NCBI RefSeq assembly: GCF_003287975.1
Contig: NZ_QMKQ01000001.1
Location: 248,001 to 312,000, forward strand
Source of the DNA: Arthrobacter sp. AQ5-05
GTDB taxonomy: Bacteria > Actinomycetota > Actinomycetes > Actinomycetales > Micrococcaceae
DNA: 64,000 nt
Direction of reading: 5' to 3'
Shown: positions 55,411 to 63,404 of the stretch, piece by piece
How positions within the stretch are numbered: the first letter of the stretch is position 1
How the letters are laid out: each line of letters opens with the position of its first letter
Position numbers and translations under genes: made by a program
Notes under the pieces: generated by a model
Seen by the model: only the letters and a program-made list of their open reading frames with translations
Databases searched by the model: none
Told to the model about the DNA's origin: nothing

Positions 55411-56112
55411 ATGGATTTTCTGCGGTGGCTCATTGAAGCTTTCAATTCTTACATCACGGTGGGCAGCAGCGCGCTGCTTGTCCGCGAAGTGGTGGGCAAC
55501 GTCTTCGGGCTTGCCTCCGCCTTGGGCGGCATCCGCCGCAAGGTCTGGGCCTGGCCGGTGGGCATCATCGGCAACATCCTGCTGCTGACGGTATTCCTTG
55601 GCAGCATCTTCGGCCACGACCAGACGGCAAACCTGCTGGGCCAGGCCGGACGCCAAATCATGTTCATCGCCGTGTCCTTCTATGGCTGGCAGCGCTGGAA
55701 GTCGAGCCGGGAATCCGGCGGCAGCGCCGTCATCCCGCGCTGGGCCACCGGCACCGAACGCATATCCCTGGCCGTGGTCATGGTCGTCGGCACAGTCGCG
55801 CTGACCCCCGTTTTCGGGACCCTGGGATCCTACGAACCGGTGTGGGCGGATGCCTGGACCTTCGTCGGATCGCTCCTGGCCACCTATGGCATGGCCAAGG
55901 GACTGGTCGAGTTCTGGCTGATCTGGGTCATCGTCGACGTGGTCGGCGTCCCGCTGCTCTTCAGCGCCGGATACTACGCCAGTGCCTTCATGTACCTGTT
56001 CTACGGCTGCTTCACGCTGGTCGGGTTCTTCATCTGGTGGAAGGCCAAGAACGACTCCAAGCCCGGCATCGAGACCGAAATGCCCGATCCCAGGGTGAAG
56101 GTGAATCCCTGA
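55411..56112 (+). CDS. ribM: Riboflavin transporter of the PnuC family (RibM/PnuX)
   Basis: 233-aa membrane protein with about seven helices. PnuC-family features are VVGNVFGLASALGGIRRKVWAWPVG (first conserved loop) and VDVVGVPLLFSAGYYASAF near the C terminus. PnuC proteins carry nicotinamide riboside, but the FMN riboswitch right before it and the downstream rib genes point to riboflavin uptake, as in RibM of Corynebacterium and Streptomyces. ATG 55411 has AGGAGG about five bases upstream. It overlaps ribD by one base. Confidence 0.9.
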   Translation: MDFLRWLIEAFNSYITVGSSALLVREVVGNVFGLASALGGIRRKVWAWPVGIIGNILLLTVFLGSIFGHDQTANLLGQAGRQIMFIAVSFYGWQRWKSSRESGGSAVIPRWATGTERISLAVVMVVGTVALTPVFGTLGSYEPVWADAWTFVGSLLATYGMAKGLVEFWLIWVIVDVVGVPLLFSAGYYASAFMYLFYGCFTLVGFFIWWKAKNDSKPGIETEMPDPRVKVNP

Positions 56113-57164
56113 TGGAAACCCCACGCGCAACCGCAGCCATGCGGCTTTCCCTGGAATTGGCCCGCCGCGGCACCCGAGGCGCAAACCCGCTGGTCGGCGC
56201 CGTCATCGTCGATGCCGAAGGCACAATCCTGGCCACCGGCCACCACCGGGGCGCAGGCACCCCGCACGCCGAGGCCGACGCACTGAACCGCCTGGGCCCC
56301 ATCGAACCGGCCGCGGCACGAGCCGCCACCATGGTCGTGACGCTCGAGCCCTGCAACCACACCGGCCGCACCGGGCCCTGCTCGCGGGCCATCATCGATG
56401 CCGGCATTGGCAACGTCATCTTCGCCGTCACCGACGGCGGCACGGACTCCGGCGGGGGAGCGGCGACGCTGCGCGCGGCCGGGGTGGAGGTCAGCCAGGG
56501 GCTGCTGGAAGCGGAAGCCACCGAGCTGAACCACCGCTGGTTCGCCGCCCGGGCCGCACAACGACCCTTCACCACCTTGCACCTGGCCCAGACACTGGAC
56601 GGACGGATCGCCGCGGCGGACGGCACCAGCCAATGGATCACCTCCCCGCGCTCCCTGCTGCACGCCCACGAGGTCCGCGCCCGCGTCGGAGCCATCGTGG
56701 TGGGCACCGGAACCGTGTTTGCCGACAACCCACGGCTCAACGCCCGCAACGAACACGGCGAGCCCTTCGAGCACCAGCCCCGGCGCATCGTCATGGGCCT
56801 GCGAGACATCCCCGCCGACGCGGCCCTGAAGGCCGACGGGAACTGGGAACAGGTCCGCACCCGCGACCCGCACCAGGTCCTGGCGCTGGTTGCCTCCCGC
56901 GGAATCGACCACGTGCTGCTCGAAGGCGGGGCCTCGATCGCCACCGCATTCCTGGCCGCAGACCTGGTCGATGAGATCTTCCTCTACCAGGCACCCATCT
57001 TCCTGGGCGCGGGCCGCGGCTCCGTCGGGGAGCTGGGCATTGCGACCCTCTCGGCCGCCCGGGCCTTCCGCCTCGATCCCGTCGACGGCGAGGCCGTGCG
57101 CATCCTGGGCCCCGACACCCTCACCCACCTTGAACCCATGCCAACGGGCACCGGCACACTCTAA
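56112..57164 (+). CDS. ribD: Bifunctional diaminohydroxyphosphoribosylaminopyrimidine deaminase / reductase RibD
   Basis: Carries out the second and third steps of riboflavin synthesis. The N-terminal zinc deaminase domain has TPHAEADAL (zinc His and catalytic Glu) and LEPCNHTGRTGPC (two zinc Cys). The C-terminal reductase domain starts TLHLAQTLDGRIAAADGTSQW, with VGTGTVFADNPRLN and VLLEGGASIATAFL for NADPH. 350 aa. Its ATG shares one base with the ribM stop (TGATG), so translation is coupled. Confidence 0.95.
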   Translation: METPRATAAMRLSLELARRGTRGANPLVGAVIVDAEGTILATGHHRGAGTPHAEADALNRLGPIEPAAARAATMVVTLEPCNHTGRTGPCSRAIIDAGIGNVIFAVTDGGTDSGGGAATLRAAGVEVSQGLLEAEATELNHRWFAARAAQRPFTTLHLAQTLDGRIAAADGTSQWITSPRSLLHAHEVRARVGAIVVGTGTVFADNPRLNARNEHGEPFEHQPRRIVMGLRDIPADAALKADGNWEQVRTRDPHQVLALVASRGIDHVLLEGGASIATAFLAADLVDEIFLYQAPIFLGAGRGSVGELGIATLSAARAFRLDPVDGEAVRILGPDTLTHLEPMPTGTGTL

Positions 57165-57175
57165 GGAACCAACAC

Positions 57176-57808
57176 ATGTTCACCGGAATCATCAGCGGCA
57201 TGGGCCGCATCGAGGCCATGGAATCCTCCCCGGAAACCGACTCGGTCATCCTGCGCATCACCGCGCCGAACCACACCGAGAACCTGGAACTGGGCGGGTC
57301 CATCGCCGTCAACGGCGTCTGCCTGACCGCCACCTCCATCAGCGGGGACACCCTGTCCCTGGATGTCATGGGCGAGACCCTGCGCCACACCACCATCGGC
57401 GCCCTGGCGGCGGGCGAGGGCATCAACCTGGAACGCTGCGTGCAGGCCGGCGGGCGGCTGGACGGCCACGTCGTCCAGGGCCACGTCGACGGCGTCGGGC
57501 AGCTGCTCGAGCACGAGTCGCTCGGGGCCTGGGACCGCTTCCGCTTCTCCATCCCCTTCGAATTGGCCCGGTACGTGGCCAAAAAGGGTTCCATCGCGAT
57601 CGACGGCATCTCGCTGACCGTCACCGAGGTCTCGGCCGCCAGCGAGAAGGAGCAGTGGTTCGAGGTCGGGATCATCCCCACCACCCTGCGCGAAACCACC
57701 CTGGGCCAACGCGTGCCCGGTTCCTCGGTCAACCTCGAGGTAGACGTCATGGCCAAGTACGCAGAGCGCTTGGCATCCTTCAACACCCCCGAAAGCAGCG
57801 CATCATGA
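57176..57808 (+). CDS. ribE: Riboflavin synthase alpha subunit
   Basis: Dismutes 6,7-dimethyl-8-ribityllumazine to riboflavin and the pyrimidine. Two homologous lumazine-binding barrels are visible: MFTGIISGMGRIEAME at the start with NGVCLTATSI, and SIAIDGISLTVTEVS in the second half with VDGVGQL between. 210 aa. It lies 11 bases after ribD and overlaps ribBA by 4 bases. Confidence 0.95.
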   Translation: MFTGIISGMGRIEAMESSPETDSVILRITAPNHTENLELGGSIAVNGVCLTATSISGDTLSLDVMGETLRHTTIGALAAGEGINLERCVQAGGRLDGHVVQGHVDGVGQLLEHESLGAWDRFRFSIPFELARYVAKKGSIAIDGISLTVTEVSAASEKEQWFEVGIIPTTLRETTLGQRVPGSSVNLEVDVMAKYAERLASFNTPESSAS

Positions 57809-59088
57809 GCATCGATCCCATTCGCCTGGATTCCATCGACGCGGCCATCAGTGCCATGGCCGCCGGCCAGGCCGTCGTGGTGGTCGACGACGCCGACCGC
57901 GAGAACGAGGGCGACATCATCTTCGCCGCCGAGTTCGCAACCCCCGAGCTGATGGGCTGGACCATCCGCCACTCCTCGGGCGTGGTGTGCACCCCGATGA
58001 CCGGTGAACGCGCCGACGCCCTGGGCCTGCCTCCCATGGTGGAAAACAACCAGGACGCCAAGGGCACCGCCTACACCGTCTCCTGCGACGCCGCCCACGG
58101 CACCTCCACCGGCATCAGCGCAGCCGACCGGGCATTGACCTCCCGCATCCTGGCCGACCCGGCCTCCGGCCCCGAGCTGATCAACCGCCCCGGCCACATC
58201 TTCCCGCTGCGCGCGGTCGACGGCGGGGTGCTGGTGCGCCGCGGCCACACCGAGGCCAGCGTCGACTTGTGCAAGGCAGCCGGCCTGGAGCCGGTCGGGG
58301 TCATCGCCGAGCTGGTGCACGACGACGGATCCATGATGCGCCTGCCGGCCCTGCGCGAGTTCGCGGACTTGTGGAACATCCCGCTGGTCAGCATCGAGGA
58401 CCTGGCCGCCTGGCGCGCCGCCTCCGACGCCGAGCCGGCCGTGGGCACCAGCGCCGCGGCCGTGCAGGGCGGGCCCGAGGTGCGGGTACCGACCCCGCAC
58501 GGGGAATTCATGGTCCGTGCCTGGCGCGAACGAAGCAGCGGCATCGAGCACCTCTCGCTCAGCGCCACGGGGCCCGACGGAACCATGGCGCGCGAGCCGC
58601 TGGTGCGCGTGCACTCCGAATGCCTGACCGGGGACGTCTTCGGCTCCTACCGCTGCGATTGCGGCGAACAGCTCGAAGCGGGCCTGGCGGCCATCAACGA
58701 ATACGGCGGGGTGCTGGTCTACCTGCGCGGGCACGAGGGCCGCGGCATCGGGCTGGCCAACAAGATCCGCGCCTATGCGCTGCAGGACGGCGGTGCCAAC
58801 ACCGTGGCCGCCAACGAGCAGCTGGGCCTGCCGGTCGACGCCCGGAACTACGACGCCGCCGCGGCGATCCTCCACGCGCTGTCCATCCAACGCATCCGGT
58901 TGATCACCAACAACCCGTTGAAGGAAGAATGGCTGGAGCAGGCGGGAATCGCCGTCACCGAGCGCGTCCCCACCCGGGTGGCGGCACGGCCCGAAAACCT
59001 TGAGTACCTGCGCACCAAGCAAAATTTGATGAACCATTCATTGCAATTGCCAACCACCGAAAACACCAACCCAGGAGTGAAATCATGA
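57805..59088 (+). CDS. ribBA: Bifunctional 3,4-dihydroxy-2-butanone-4-phosphate synthase / GTP cyclohydrolase II
   Basis: Makes both starting units of riboflavin. The N-terminal RibB domain has [16 protein letters not shown] and [28 protein letters not shown]. The C-terminal RibA domain has [23 protein letters not shown], where three Cys bind zinc, and [22 protein letters not shown], the catalytic region. 427 aa. Chained by ATGA overlaps to ribE before and ribH after. Confidence 0.96.
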
Positions 59089-59567
59089 GCGGACACGGAG
59101 CACCCCTCGTCGGAGCCGACGAACTGGCGGCAGCGGGGGAGGCCGGCATGCGCGCGGTCATCGTCGCGGCCAGCTGGCACACCCAGATCATGGACGGACT
59201 GGTTGACGGGGCGCTGCGCGCCGCCGCCGACGCCGGGATCAAGACCCCCGAGGTCATCCGCGTGCCGGGCACCTTCGAACTCCCGGTGGCCGCTTCGCGC
59301 CTGGCCCACTCCTACGACACCGTCATCGCGCTGGGCGTCGTCATCCGTGGCGGCACCCCGCACTTCGACTTCGTCTGCCAGGGTGCCACCATGGGCCTGA
59401 CCGACGTGTCCGTGCGCACCGGGGTCCCGGTCGGCTTCGGCGTGCTGACCTGCGACACCGAGGAGCAGGCCATCGCCCGTGCGGGCCTGGAGGGCTCCGT
59501 GGAGGACAAGGGCTACGAGGCCATGAGCGCCGGCCTGCAGACCGCCTTGGTGTTGACCCGGCGCTAA
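59085..59567 (+). CDS. ribH: 6,7-dimethyl-8-ribityllumazine synthase
   Basis: Joins the butanone phosphate and the pyrimidine to lumazine. Conserved parts are [54 protein letters not shown] with the catalytic His, and [21 protein letters not shown]. 160 aa, forming icosahedral or pentameric shells in the family. Last gene of the rib run. Confidence 0.96.
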
Positions 59568-59725: not shown

Positions 59726-60815
59726 CTACTCGTTCGCGATTTCTTCGCTTGGCGCATCGTGGCTGCCATAGGGCCTGGCTCCGGCGGCAATGGTGATGTT
59801 CAGGCGGGCCGCACGATGCGGGCCGAAGGCGACGTAGCACACGCCGTTGCCGTCGTAGCCGGGGAGTACCGGCCGAGCGGTTGATGCGCGCGGCAATCGC
59901 GTCAACCACCACGGCACCCTGCCCCTCGGCGAAGATCCCGGCCTTGGGGGGTGCCGACGCTGGTGACATCCCCGATGGCAAAGACCTCCGGGTAGGAGGT
60001 TGGGAGGGTCAGCGGATCCACGGGGATCCAGCCCCCGAGGGCCATTCCGGATTCGGCAACCACCTTCGGGACCACGTGCCTGGGCACCCCGGGGAACAGG
60101 TCGAAGGGCATGGCGGTGCCGTCGTCCAGCACCAGTTCCCCGCCCGCCGGGTCCAGCCGTTCGATCACCTTCCGGGGATGCCACGCGATGCCGCGCTCGG
60201 CAACGGCCTCGAGCAGCGCCTCGGAGGCCGCCGGCACCGGCGGCACGGGAGTGCGCAGCGGCATGACCAGGGCGATTTCGGAGCGTTCCCGCAATCCCCG
60301 GGAGACCAGCGGTCATGCACCAGGAATGCCGTTTTGCTGGGTGCCGGCGGGCACTTGAACGGTGTCGAGGTGACAGCGATGACCGCCTGGCCGCCGTCGA
60401 AGTCGTTCAGTGCCTCCCGCGCGGCCAGGGCGCCCGCGACACTGTAGTACTCATTGCCGCACTCCAGAAGCCCGGGTGTCGCGGACGGGTCGAGGTCCGC
60501 GCCCAGGGCCACCACCAGGTAATCCGCCTCGCAGGTACCTGAATCCGTCTCCACGGACTTGGCCGCCGGGTCGATGGACAGGATGGTGGCGCGCACATGC
60601 TTCACCCCGGGCTTGTCGAGCTGGCTGCAGGGATGGCTGGCCTCGGCCAGGGTGGGCCTGCCGAACATGACAGCGAGCTTGGAGAAGCCGAACATGAAGT
60701 GCCCGTTGCGGTCGATGAGCATGACCTCGATGCCGGCACCGAAACGTTCCGAGAGCCCCGCCGCCACCTCGAGCCCGCCGAAGCCGGTACCCAGCACCAA
60801 GACCTGCGTGGACAT
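59726..60815 (-). pseudogene. Decayed NAD(P)/FAD-dependent oxidoreductase (sulfide:quinone reductase-like)
   Basis: Reading leftward from 60815, MSTQVLVLGTGFGGLEVAAG begins an FAD Rossmann fold, with ADYLVVALGADLDPSATPG as the second conserved segment. A frameshift near 60310 moves reading to the frame holding RSEIALVMPLRTPVPPVPA and VFAIGDVTSVGTP; another near 59955 to AGIFAEGQGAVVVDAIAARI; a third near 59885 to YDGNGVCYVAFGPHRAARL, which ends at 59726. Each piece is in order and would complete a protein of about 360 aa. With three frameshifts it is not functional as one chain. Confidence 0.85.
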
Positions 60816-60993: not shown

Positions 60994-61665
60994 CTATTGG
61001 CTGACTACCGAGATTCCCGAGCCGAGCTCGACCCGGGCTTTCCCCGCCGGCGATTCGATCTGGACTCTGAGGGGCCCGCGGGCAGGCAGAGACACCTTGT
61101 TCGGAAACCAGAGCCGGTTCCGTTGCACAACGACCAGGAGCCCCTCATGGCTGCCCATGGAGGCGAAGGTGCTGGAGCAATCGTAAAAGATGGGGATGGC
61201 CAACCTCTCGGACAGCATGGCCACGGTGTCCAGCACGTCCTCGACGCCGATCCCGACTTCACTGATGGACAACATCTGCGGATTTTCGCCCTTGCCGGTC
61301 ATCGTGGCGGCATCGGCGTCGCGTGCGATGAACTCCAGGATGATGCCTTCGGGTCCCAGGAAATACAGCGAACGGGAATTCCATCCATCCGAACCGAGGA
61401 TGACCTCAGAGCCGCCCGCCTGGAGCAGCGGGACGCGACGGGCCAACCATTCGTGGGCCAAGTCAAACTCCGCCGGCAGGATTCCGAAGGCCAGGTGGTG
61501 GACACCGTCAAGAATATCCCCGGCACCCAGCATCAGGCGGCTTGGGCCAATGGCAACCTCCGCGCCAGTTGGAGTCGTTTTGACCGGTAACAGCAGGACG
61601 TCGCGGTAGAACCGCACCGCTTTGACGAGGTCATGGACGGTGATGGAGACGCTGGGGATTTTCAT
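60994..61665 (-). CDS. VOC (glyoxalase/bleomycin-resistance) family protein
   Basis: 223 aa, two VOC-type half domains. VSITVHDLVKAVRFYRDVLLLPV begins the first; VHHLAFGI and GIILEFIARD give His and Glu ligand candidates. The second begins LSISEVGIGVEDVLDTVAML. Members isomerise, cleave or sequester small molecules; the substrate is unknown. AAGG lies upstream of ATG 61665. It is second in a leftward unit behind the SoxR-box-like promoter, so induction by redox-active compounds is likely, and a detoxification role would fit. Confidence 0.85.
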   Translation of the reverse strand: MKIPSVSITVHDLVKAVRFYRDVLLLPVKTTPTGAEVAIGPSRLMLGAGDILDGVHHLAFGILPAEFDLAHEWLARRVPLLQAGGSEVILGSDGWNSRSLYFLGPEGIILEFIARDADAATMTGKGENPQMLSISEVGIGVEDVLDTVAMLSERLAIPIFYDCSSTFASMGSHEGLLVVVQRNRLWFPNKVSLPARGPLRVQIESPAGKARVELGSGISVVSQ

Positions 61666-61713
61666 TCTTTGGATGCCTTCTCTGGGAGGTGGATGCCACG
61701 GGACGCATTCGGG

Positions 61714-61941
61714 TCAGATGATTCTCGAGCCACGGCTTCCGGCCAAGAGCATCCGGGGTGATTCGTGTGGCCGCGGGATGCTCGCGCTTCGCTTTGGGTT
61801 TCCTGTCTCGCGGAGCTGTTTCCCCAGGAGCCGCAACCTCCGGCGTTGTTCACGGGCGGAGATTGCCAGCTGCCCCGAATCTTGTTCCGGGTTCCCGGCA
61901 GAGGCGGCTTCGCGTGCGTTGTTGATCAATGTGGCCGTCAT
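61714..61941 (-). CDS. Small hypothetical protein in the SoxR-controlled unit
   Basis: 75-aa basic protein MTATLINNAREAASAGNPEQ with Arg-rich middle (REQRRRLRLLG) and no known domain. ATG 61941 has GAGGAAA about five bases upstream, a good ribosome site, and the next gene starts 48 bases after its stop. It is the first ORF downstream of the SoxR-box-like promoter. It could be a real small protein or only leader sequence; coding character is moderate. Confidence 0.5.
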   Translation of the reverse strand: MTATLINNAREAASAGNPEQDSGQLAISAREQRRRLRLLGKQLRETGNPKRSASIPRPHESPRMLLAGSRGSRII

Positions 61942-61972
61942 GGGTTTCCTCGTGTTCGTGGGCGTAGGCACC

Positions 61973-62003
61973 ATGGAACCAGCTAAAGCTAGCTTGAGGT
62001 CAA
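61973..62003 (-). promoter_or_regulatory. SoxR-box-like operator and promoter in the soxR divergent region
   Basis: On the minus strand, TTGACC (62003-61998) is followed by a 19-base spacer and then TTCCAT. The spacer overlaps CCTCAAGCTAGCTTTAGC (61999-61982), close to the SoxR box CCTCAAG-n4-CTTGAGG: the first half is perfect and the second matches 5 of 7. The 19-base spacing is the over-long spacer expected for a MerR-family activator such as SoxR. It faces the small ORF and the VOC gene. Confidence 0.75.
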
Positions 62004-62028
62004 GCCGGTGGTGTGCAAGCATGGGCGC

Positions 62029-62514
62029 ATGACCCCCGCCACGCCCAGGAGCCTATTGCCCATCGGTGAAATTGCGAGCAGGGCGGGTCTGTCGGTACCC
62101 GCCGTGAGGTATTACGAGTCCCGAAACCTCGTCACCTCTGAACGAACCGCCGGCAACAAGCGAGTCTTTCGCCGCTACACCCTGCGACGGCTAGCCGTCA
62201 TTGCCGCCGGGCAGCGAGTGGGCCTCACCCTGGCTGAGATTGCCGAAGCGCTGGCCGAGCTCCCCTCGGACAAGGCCCCGACCCAGGACGATTGGCATCA
62301 GCTCAGCACGCATTGGACGCTGCTGGTGGCACAAAGAATCCGCCAACTGGAAAAACTCCAGGGATCACTCGATGACTGCATCGGCTGCGGTTGCCTCTCC
62401 CTCAAGAAGTGCCACCTCTTCAATCCCCAAGACGAGGCGGCATCCGAAGGCCCGGGTTCGCGGTGGGTTCGCAGGAGTCTGGAAACCAACGACGCAGAGG
62501 AAATCCACGGCTGA
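62029..62514 (+). CDS. soxR: Redox-sensitive transcriptional activator SoxR
   Basis: MerR-family regulator whose [2Fe-2S] cluster senses redox-cycling compounds or superoxide. The winged helix starts LLPIGEIASRAGLSVPAVRYYESRNLV; a dimerising helix follows; and the cluster ligands are the SoxR-specific C-x2-C-x-C-x5-C (CIGCGCLSLKKC) near residue 120. 161 aa. ATG 62029 gives the family N terminus; a GTG 21 bases upstream is in frame. No clear ribosome site. It lies divergent from its apparent target across the SoxR box. Confidence 0.95.
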   Translation: MTPATPRSLLPIGEIASRAGLSVPAVRYYESRNLVTSERTAGNKRVFRRYTLRRLAVIAAGQRVGLTLAEIAEALAELPSDKAPTQDDWHQLSTHWTLLVAQRIRQLEKLQGSLDDCIGCGCLSLKKCHLFNPQDEAASEGPGSRWVRRSLETNDAEEIHG

Positions 62515-62645
62515 ACGCCGCCCGCTGCTGGAACGGCCATGACGATTCCAGGTGGATGGCGACTCGAAGGAGATTCGTCGTGCGGCCTGCCCGAACCCAG
62601 CCATTTATCGCGGCAGCGAAGCCAACTGTGTGTGAGAATCTTCCC

Positions 62646-63404
62646 ATGTCCAATGAACCAGGAATCTGGCAGAACACCACACATGCCCGGGCAATGGAAG
62701 TCGACGTCGGCCGCCTTGGGGGAATCCGGCGCGACCCGACATTCAATTCACGCAACCGGGACTTGCACTTGGTCCCTGAGGTTCTGGCCTATCCGGCCGA
62801 CGAAGCCACGGATCAAGGTGAGGGCTCCGCACTGATGACGTTGCATCCGGACGGTTCGATTTCCGTGGCTGACAACGGGCGAGGAACCGGCACCCGGAAG
62901 GATGCTCATGGCCGCACCGTCAGGAAGCCGGTCATGGCCACGAAGGATCTCAGGTTCTTTGATTCCGCTGACGCGCCGTTACTGCCCGACGGGCAGCCTC
63001 GCCGAGGCATGTCCGTGGTTGCAGCCTTGAGCAGATGGCTGGTCCACACCAATCGGCACACGCACGGTTCATGGACCCGGCGCTACGAACGGGGCCTCCC
63101 CGTGACGGACTTGATCCCGTTGGCGGACAACGGAACGACCGGAACAACGGTGCACTTCCTATCCGGTCCACCCTGCGCGCCCGCGCCGAGATATTGGTAT
63201 CCGAGCTCGAAACCTTGAGCGAGGCCCTTGCTCCTGTTCTCTCCGTTGAGGTTCGAGATTGTCGATCTTGAATGCACGACCGTCAACGGCCGACCCGACG
63301 ACACCGTGCGCCGAGGAGCATTTCTCGGACGGTGGCTCGCTCTCGGCGTCGAGCTGAATAGGTACCAGCCTTTGCCGATCCGCGACGCCGGCGTCCGGCC
63401 ATGA
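62646..63404 (+). pseudogene. Frameshifted GyrB-like (GHKL) ATPase-domain protein
   Basis: From ATG 62646 the frame shows LHLVPEVLAYPADEATDQG and VADNGRGTGTR, the GHKL ATP-site motifs of GyrB/ParE, then GMSVVAALSRWLVHTNRHTHG and ERGLPVTDLIPLADN and GTTVHFLS. After about 63165 the reading passes to another frame (RARAEILVSELETLSEALAPVL), then returns near 63245 to the first frame (FEIVDLECTTVNGRPDDTVRR) and ends at 63404. The ATP-site Asn of DNS is replaced (AYP), so activity was probably lost. It would be an ATPase-domain-only protein of about 250 aa, without topoisomerase domains. Confidence 0.72.

Follow-up and report, generated by a model that had tools for sequence, protein, structure and literature searches.

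In E. coli, soxS is transcribed divergently from soxR, and the SoxR box lies between the −35 and −10 elements of the soxS promoter, inside a 19-base spacer. In Streptomyces coelicolor, the direct targets of SoxR are genes for drug handling that have a box within their promoters (SCO7008, SCO1178, SCO1909, SCO2478, SCO4266 and SCO0320ext). They encode a transporter and enzymes of redox or tailoring function, and the regulon is induced by an endogenous redox-active antibiotic (PMC4146615). This SoxR is activated by toxoflavin, actinorhodin, pyocyanin and plumbagin, but not by paraquat (PMC5288332).

Toxoflavin is degraded by the lyase TflA/TxDE of Paenibacillus polymyxa (structures 3pkv and 3oul), which has a two-domain VOC fold. 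The enzyme binds Mn(II) through His60, Glu113 and Glu138 and requires Tyr103, mutants of each being inactive; it needs O2, Mn and a reductant, and acts on the reduced form of toxoflavin (PMC3143149). Phenazine resistance by EhpR is described as following the principle of the bleomycin and mitomycin resistance proteins (PMC3175449).

We analysed a 64-kb stretch of the genome of the soil actinobacterium Arthrobacter sp. AQ5-05, hereafter the window, in which a second SoxR paralogue, soxR2, faces a gene for a two-domain VOC protein. The layout is that of the E. coli pair, divergent and with a box in a 19-base spacer, but the predicted target is an enzyme gene and not a second regulator. In S. coelicolor the box likewise sits within the promoter; however, no VOC lyase belongs to that regulon, whereas the window pairs a second SoxR with a single enzyme gene. 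The VOC protein resembles TflA/TxDE in its two-domain fold, its ligands and the positions of Tyr103, Trp189 and Arg187, and differs from it in sequence (22% identity), in its pocket residues and in having its gene under a SoxR box. EhpR too is a VOC-type protein conferring resistance to a redox-active drug (PMC3175449), but the protein of the window has retained the whole metal triad, and its match is to TflA.

The papers that we searched contained no link between SoxR and TflA. In the literature covered, which leaves out most subscription journals, no paper joined SoxR with "vicinal oxygen chelate", and in PMC5288332, one of the papers mentioning both toxoflavin and SoxR, toxoflavin figures only as an inducer. 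We found no published report of a pairing between SoxR and a toxoflavin-lyase-like enzyme, and a mention elsewhere is possible.

Results

A second SoxR gene and its divergent promoter

The soxR2 gene (62029..62514, plus strand) encodes 161 aa from an ATG, with an in-frame alternative GTG start at 62008. Its product scores 183.8 bits against the SoxR profile TIGR01950, whose curated cut-off is 116.9, and its translation carries the cluster motif CIGCGCLSLKKC, of the form CX2CXCX5C. The full set of cluster cysteines noticed in an earlier, sequence-only reading of this DNA is therefore present, and on these features the product is a genuine SoxR. Orthologues exist in 6 of 15 genomes of the genus, with dN/dS values between 0.11 and 0.22 in genus comparisons.

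Between soxR2 and the divergent unit lies the SoxR box GCTAAAGCTAGCTTGAGG (61982..61999, no strand assigned), which agrees with the consensus CCTCAAGYTARCTTGAGG at 16 of 18 positions. The half reading CCTCAAG, the first in the minus-strand reading, is perfect, as had been claimed. This is the sole site with at most 3 mismatches in the window, where shuffled sequences lead one to expect 0.05, and the best of the four such sites in the whole 4.65-Mb genome (reversed control, 0). The box is enclosed by a minus-strand promoter made of a −35 element TTGACC (61998..62003) and a −10-like TTCCAT (61973..61978) separated by 19 bases, the placement that the sequence-only reading had given. TTGACC is invariant in six genus genomes. 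The −10 matches TATAAT at only 3 of 6 positions, yet it is conserved among relatives as TTC(C/G)AT, and the whole −35/box/−10 stretch is nearly invariant in the genus alignment. Genome-wide, TTGACCTNAAGN4CTT has a single occurrence, at this promoter.

A box within an over-long-spacer promoter that adjoins soxR2 makes the divergent unit a putative member of a SoxR regulon. The box is retained in all six genus genomes that have soxR2 with an adjoining VOC gene, and the loss of the box from close relatives keeping the genes, named beforehand as evidence against SoxR control, was not seen. Both the 75-codon ORF and the two-domain VOC gene of the unit are open as first reported. SoxR2 would control a small ORF and a toxoflavin-lyase-like gene, a target unlike those of S. 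coelicolor SoxR, and non-canonical as had been proposed.

The small ORF

The first gene of the divergent unit is a basic leader ORF of 75 codons (61714..61941, minus strand). Its frame is open over six genomes, with one in-frame 3-base deletion, and its dN/dS is 0.54, against 0.88 when columns are shuffled (0 of 200 shuffles as low, six genomes). The most constrained part runs from codon 58 onwards (dN/dS 0.37). The ORF is probably translated. Comparison with the Pfam families gave no match for it.

In G012 and G013 a deletion has removed the start of the ORF, and two loci (L050 and L052) are without it, leaving 99 and 69 bases from the end of the box to the VOC start codon. Because relatives lacking an intact ORF keep the soxR-box-VOC arrangement, an essential partnership was ruled out. 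To judge from these alignments, the ORF is weakly constrained and dispensable for the arrangement. Of the VOC/small-ORF pair, for which a search beside soxR in relatives had been suggested, the VOC gene recurs over four families; the small ORF has been lost or damaged in several relatives that keep the arrangement.

The VOC protein, a remote homologue of toxoflavin lyase

The VOC gene (60994..61665, minus strand) encodes 223 aa. A PDB profile search with 34 VOC homologues placed toxoflavin lyase TflA/TxDE (3pkv, 3oul) first, over nearly the full length (1.7e-30); the next family, FosB, matched the N-terminal half only, at about 1e-9. With the AlphaFold model (mean pLDDT 93.6), the TflA/TxDE entries were the top four of 1028 PDB matches in a fold search, with TM values of 0.79-0.84, the leading match standing at 0.83. 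Residue mapping assigned His60, Glu113 and Glu138 of TxDE to the predicted metal ligands H57, E111 and E136, and the catalytic Tyr103 to Y101, all of them invariant in 34/34 homologues. The third predicted ligand, Glu136, is contributed by the second domain, which is also the case in TxDE, and Trp189 and Arg187 of TxDE are also retained among the homologues.

The wall against which toxoflavin stacks in TxDE (Phe94, Phe172, Leu190) reads G91, S169 and F187 in the VOC protein. Over the 34 homologues, the TxDE pocket residues F94, F96 and F172 are replaced (mostly F94 by G and F172 by S, A or P), and L170 and L190 have become Phe. The Pfam family TxDE (PF18711) gave no match to the VOC protein at E ≤ 0.01, and matched one of the 34 homologues, at 5.5e-4. 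Because of the low identity, the unmatched Pfam family and the changed stacking wall, we name the protein a remote toxoflavin-lyase homologue, and not a toxoflavin lyase proper. With the triad and the tyrosine retained and wall residues changed, the protein probably performs TxDE-like chemistry, and probably on a different substrate. Since the pocket differs, toxoflavin is unlikely to be the compound acted upon, or at least the only one.

Metal-free drug-binding VOC proteins of the EhpR/Ble type have no conserved complete metal site; in the VOC protein the triad is complete and invariant. This bears on the proposal, made in the sequence-only reading, of a redox-drug sequestration system, of which the defence against redox-active drugs stays the most likely role and the sequestration gives way. 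A SoxR2-controlled protein that only binds the drug, in the manner of EhpR or the bleomycin-binding proteins, has precedents in the VOC fold, including one for a redox-active phenazine (EhpR; PMC3175449), and the pocket wall does differ from that of TxDE. A pure binder, however, need not keep a triad and a catalytic Tyr without exception in 34/34 homologues, and both sequence and fold give the lyase as best match, so that sequestration is unlikely. The complete triad, the catalytic Tyr and the TflA homology make degradation the better reading, and an enzyme is what best accounts for the features of the VOC protein.

It could also be a metal-dependent enzyme for another class of substrate, such as a FosA/FosB-like thiol transferase or a dioxygenase that cleaves the ring of a stress metabolite, induced through SoxR2 in general redox stress. 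The weaker FosA/FosB matches are in keeping with this, but they stop at the N-terminal half whereas TflA is matched over nearly its full length, and the third ligand is delivered from the second domain in the TxDE way; we consider this alternative quite improbable. The reading of a degradative, toxoflavin-lyase-like enzyme is the one retained below.

Distribution, linkage and relocation

Among 15 genomes of the genus, whose named members include Paeniglutamicibacter, a VOC match was found in 7 and soxR2 in 6, and in all six soxR2 genomes the VOC gene adjoins with the box between. Some VOC genes are broken (L012, L014 and L015), by a stop in G012 and a frameshift in G009, and as a remnant in G004; soxR2 is intact in G009 and G012 despite this. 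Intact VOC genes have dN/dS values of 0.22-0.39 within the genus, leaving out the pair G012 and G013, in which a dropped stop codon shifted the alignment. As the VOC gene is frameshifted, stopped or a remnant in relatives, the soxR2-VOC trait is, on this comparison, accessory and being lost in places.

At the level of the family the distribution is patchy (29 of 295 genomes). A single-sequence scan of the genome contigs found nothing, and an alignment scan used instead found 19 loci. A phylum-wide search, in which the best 7 candidates per genome were scored, gave at least 3 matches, and a plasmid search gave five distant homologues, the Cryobacterium copy being without a box. The same 253-aa VOC protein is present at L053, in the Micrococcaceae genome G212, and at L079, in a record titled Sporosarcina beigongshangi REN13; the name on that record is probably wrong.

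Across the order, the nearest SoxR relatives include seven loci outside the near-identical group in which a homologous VOC gene adjoins soxR. Six have a box with at least 10 of 12 core matches between the two genes (L058, L104, L105, L106, L111 and L113), and the seventh (L112) has only 8 of 12. The VOC-linked SoxRs form one clade (97/95) spread over four families of the order. Starting from the VOC gene, a box with at least 10/12 matches lies within 350 bases at 12 of 28 loci (null mean 0.36, maximum 4), many of these loci being related and not amounting to 28 independent tests. Some VOC homologues are without a box. Two genomes, G037 and G212, have soxR2 at a distance from the VOC gene, with a box retained at each.

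In the window, a gene for a PnuC-like transporter followed by ribD, ribE, ribBA and ribH (55411-59567, plus strand) precedes the soxR2 unit. Toxoflavin being a flavin analogue, a link with this operon was considered and dropped. The unit sits beside ribH in G000, G008 and G006 and elsewhere in the other genus genomes, so the adjacency carries no message. Next to it is a minus-strand gene for an FAD oxidoreductase similar to sulfide:quinone reductases (59726-60815). It is spread over two frames (60165-60815 and 59902-60294) and is apparently a frameshifted pseudogene; G008 and G006 have 87% identical homologous segments in the corresponding position. On the other side, in the same three genomes, soxR2 is adjoined by a truncated gyrB/parE-like N-terminal fragment (62641-63400, plus strand), possibly also a pseudogene.

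The recurrent linkage, the boxes and the differing genomic sites together support a soxR2-VOC functional unit that relocates. That the locus is instead decaying, with no current function, is very unlikely: patchiness, broken copies, flanking apparent pseudogenes and a variable site within the genus would fit, but soxR2 and the VOC gene are both intact in the window and evolve at the low dN/dS values given above, and box and linkage persist over four families.

Core SoxR1 and the two operator classes

A core SoxR, SoxR1, about 46% identical to SoxR2, is present in 15/15 genus genomes. At the six core loci examined, the 3′ end of soxR1 touches or overlaps a box of the CCTCAACCwwGGTTGAGG type, set in a TTGACC promoter with a 19-base spacer, and downstream lie a flavin reductase gene and then one for an Fe/Mn superoxide dismutase. 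At G000:C1:426588-428382 (L095:2589-4383), the overlapped box is a perfect CCTCAACCAAGGTTGAGG and the flavin reductase belongs to PF01613; the core operator without mismatch occurs once in its own genome. In two core-type SoxRs (L145 and L146), CIACGC replaces CIGCGC in the cluster motif.

The operators differ at box positions 7 and 12, which are C..G for the core SoxR and G..C for SoxR2. C..G boxes go with SoxRs of the VSALH type and G..C boxes with those of the VPAVR type (loci L016-L036 and L103-L156), and the SoxR tree shows a single change of class. The VOC gene bears a C..G box in genomes of genus g20 and in three from Nocardia, all of them with a core/His-type protein as the closest SoxR; in G018, G227 and G058, which gave no SoxR match, it has no box. 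The exception is G180, which has a core-type SoxR only, yet a G..C box. That operator class follows SoxR type in most genomes is a lead from these comparisons.

Other genes divergent from R-type SoxRs, seen in sequence only, encode an LLM-class oxidoreductase-like protein (L110), MFS transporters (L114-L116 and L125) and proteins of the metallo-beta-lactamase fold (L120 and L122); L117 is a further locus of this group.

Discussion

We think it fairly probable that soxR2 and the VOC gene form a sense-and-degrade pair, in which SoxR2 would detect a redox-active compound and bring about the synthesis of a toxoflavin-lyase-like enzyme for its oxidative breakdown. SoxR2 would bind the single box between the two transcription units, and a redox-active compound would oxidise its [2Fe-2S] cluster. 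The oxidised protein would then remodel the promoter with the over-long 19-base spacer, and transcription of the leader ORF and VOC gene would follow. With Mn(II) and O2, the enzyme would most likely oxidatively break down a redox-cycling heterocycle or quinone in its reduced state. As toxoflavin induces SoxR and the enzyme that SoxR2 would control is toxoflavin-lyase-like, the compounds sensed and destroyed may belong to the same class. It is tempting to speculate that the flavin reductase beside the core SoxR supplies the reduced substrate.

A broader proposal, on which we place somewhat less than even confidence, is that this actinobacterial lineage runs two insulated SoxR channels. The core channel would answer general redox stress through CCTCAACCwwGGTTGAGG, with the flavin reductase and superoxide dismutase. 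SoxR2, with the operator class CCTCAAGnnnnCTTGAGG, would serve a single toxoflavin-lyase-like enzyme acting to destroy a specific redox-active antibiotic in its reduced form, the pair moving from genome to genome as a cassette. Because of the G180 exception, this reading is a lead and not a result.

Outside the enteric bacteria, most published SoxR targets are transporters or oxidoreductases whose substrates are not known. The soxR2 unit would tie SoxR to a class of enzymes whose structure has been solved and whose known substrate, toxoflavin, is a documented SoxR inducer; since one compound is both lyase substrate and inducer, the idea that SoxR senses the drug its target destroys is directly testable. 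SoxR1 and SoxR2 offer a natural pair of paralogues with different operators, and the VOC family provides candidate enzymes for the degradation of redox-active antibiotics.
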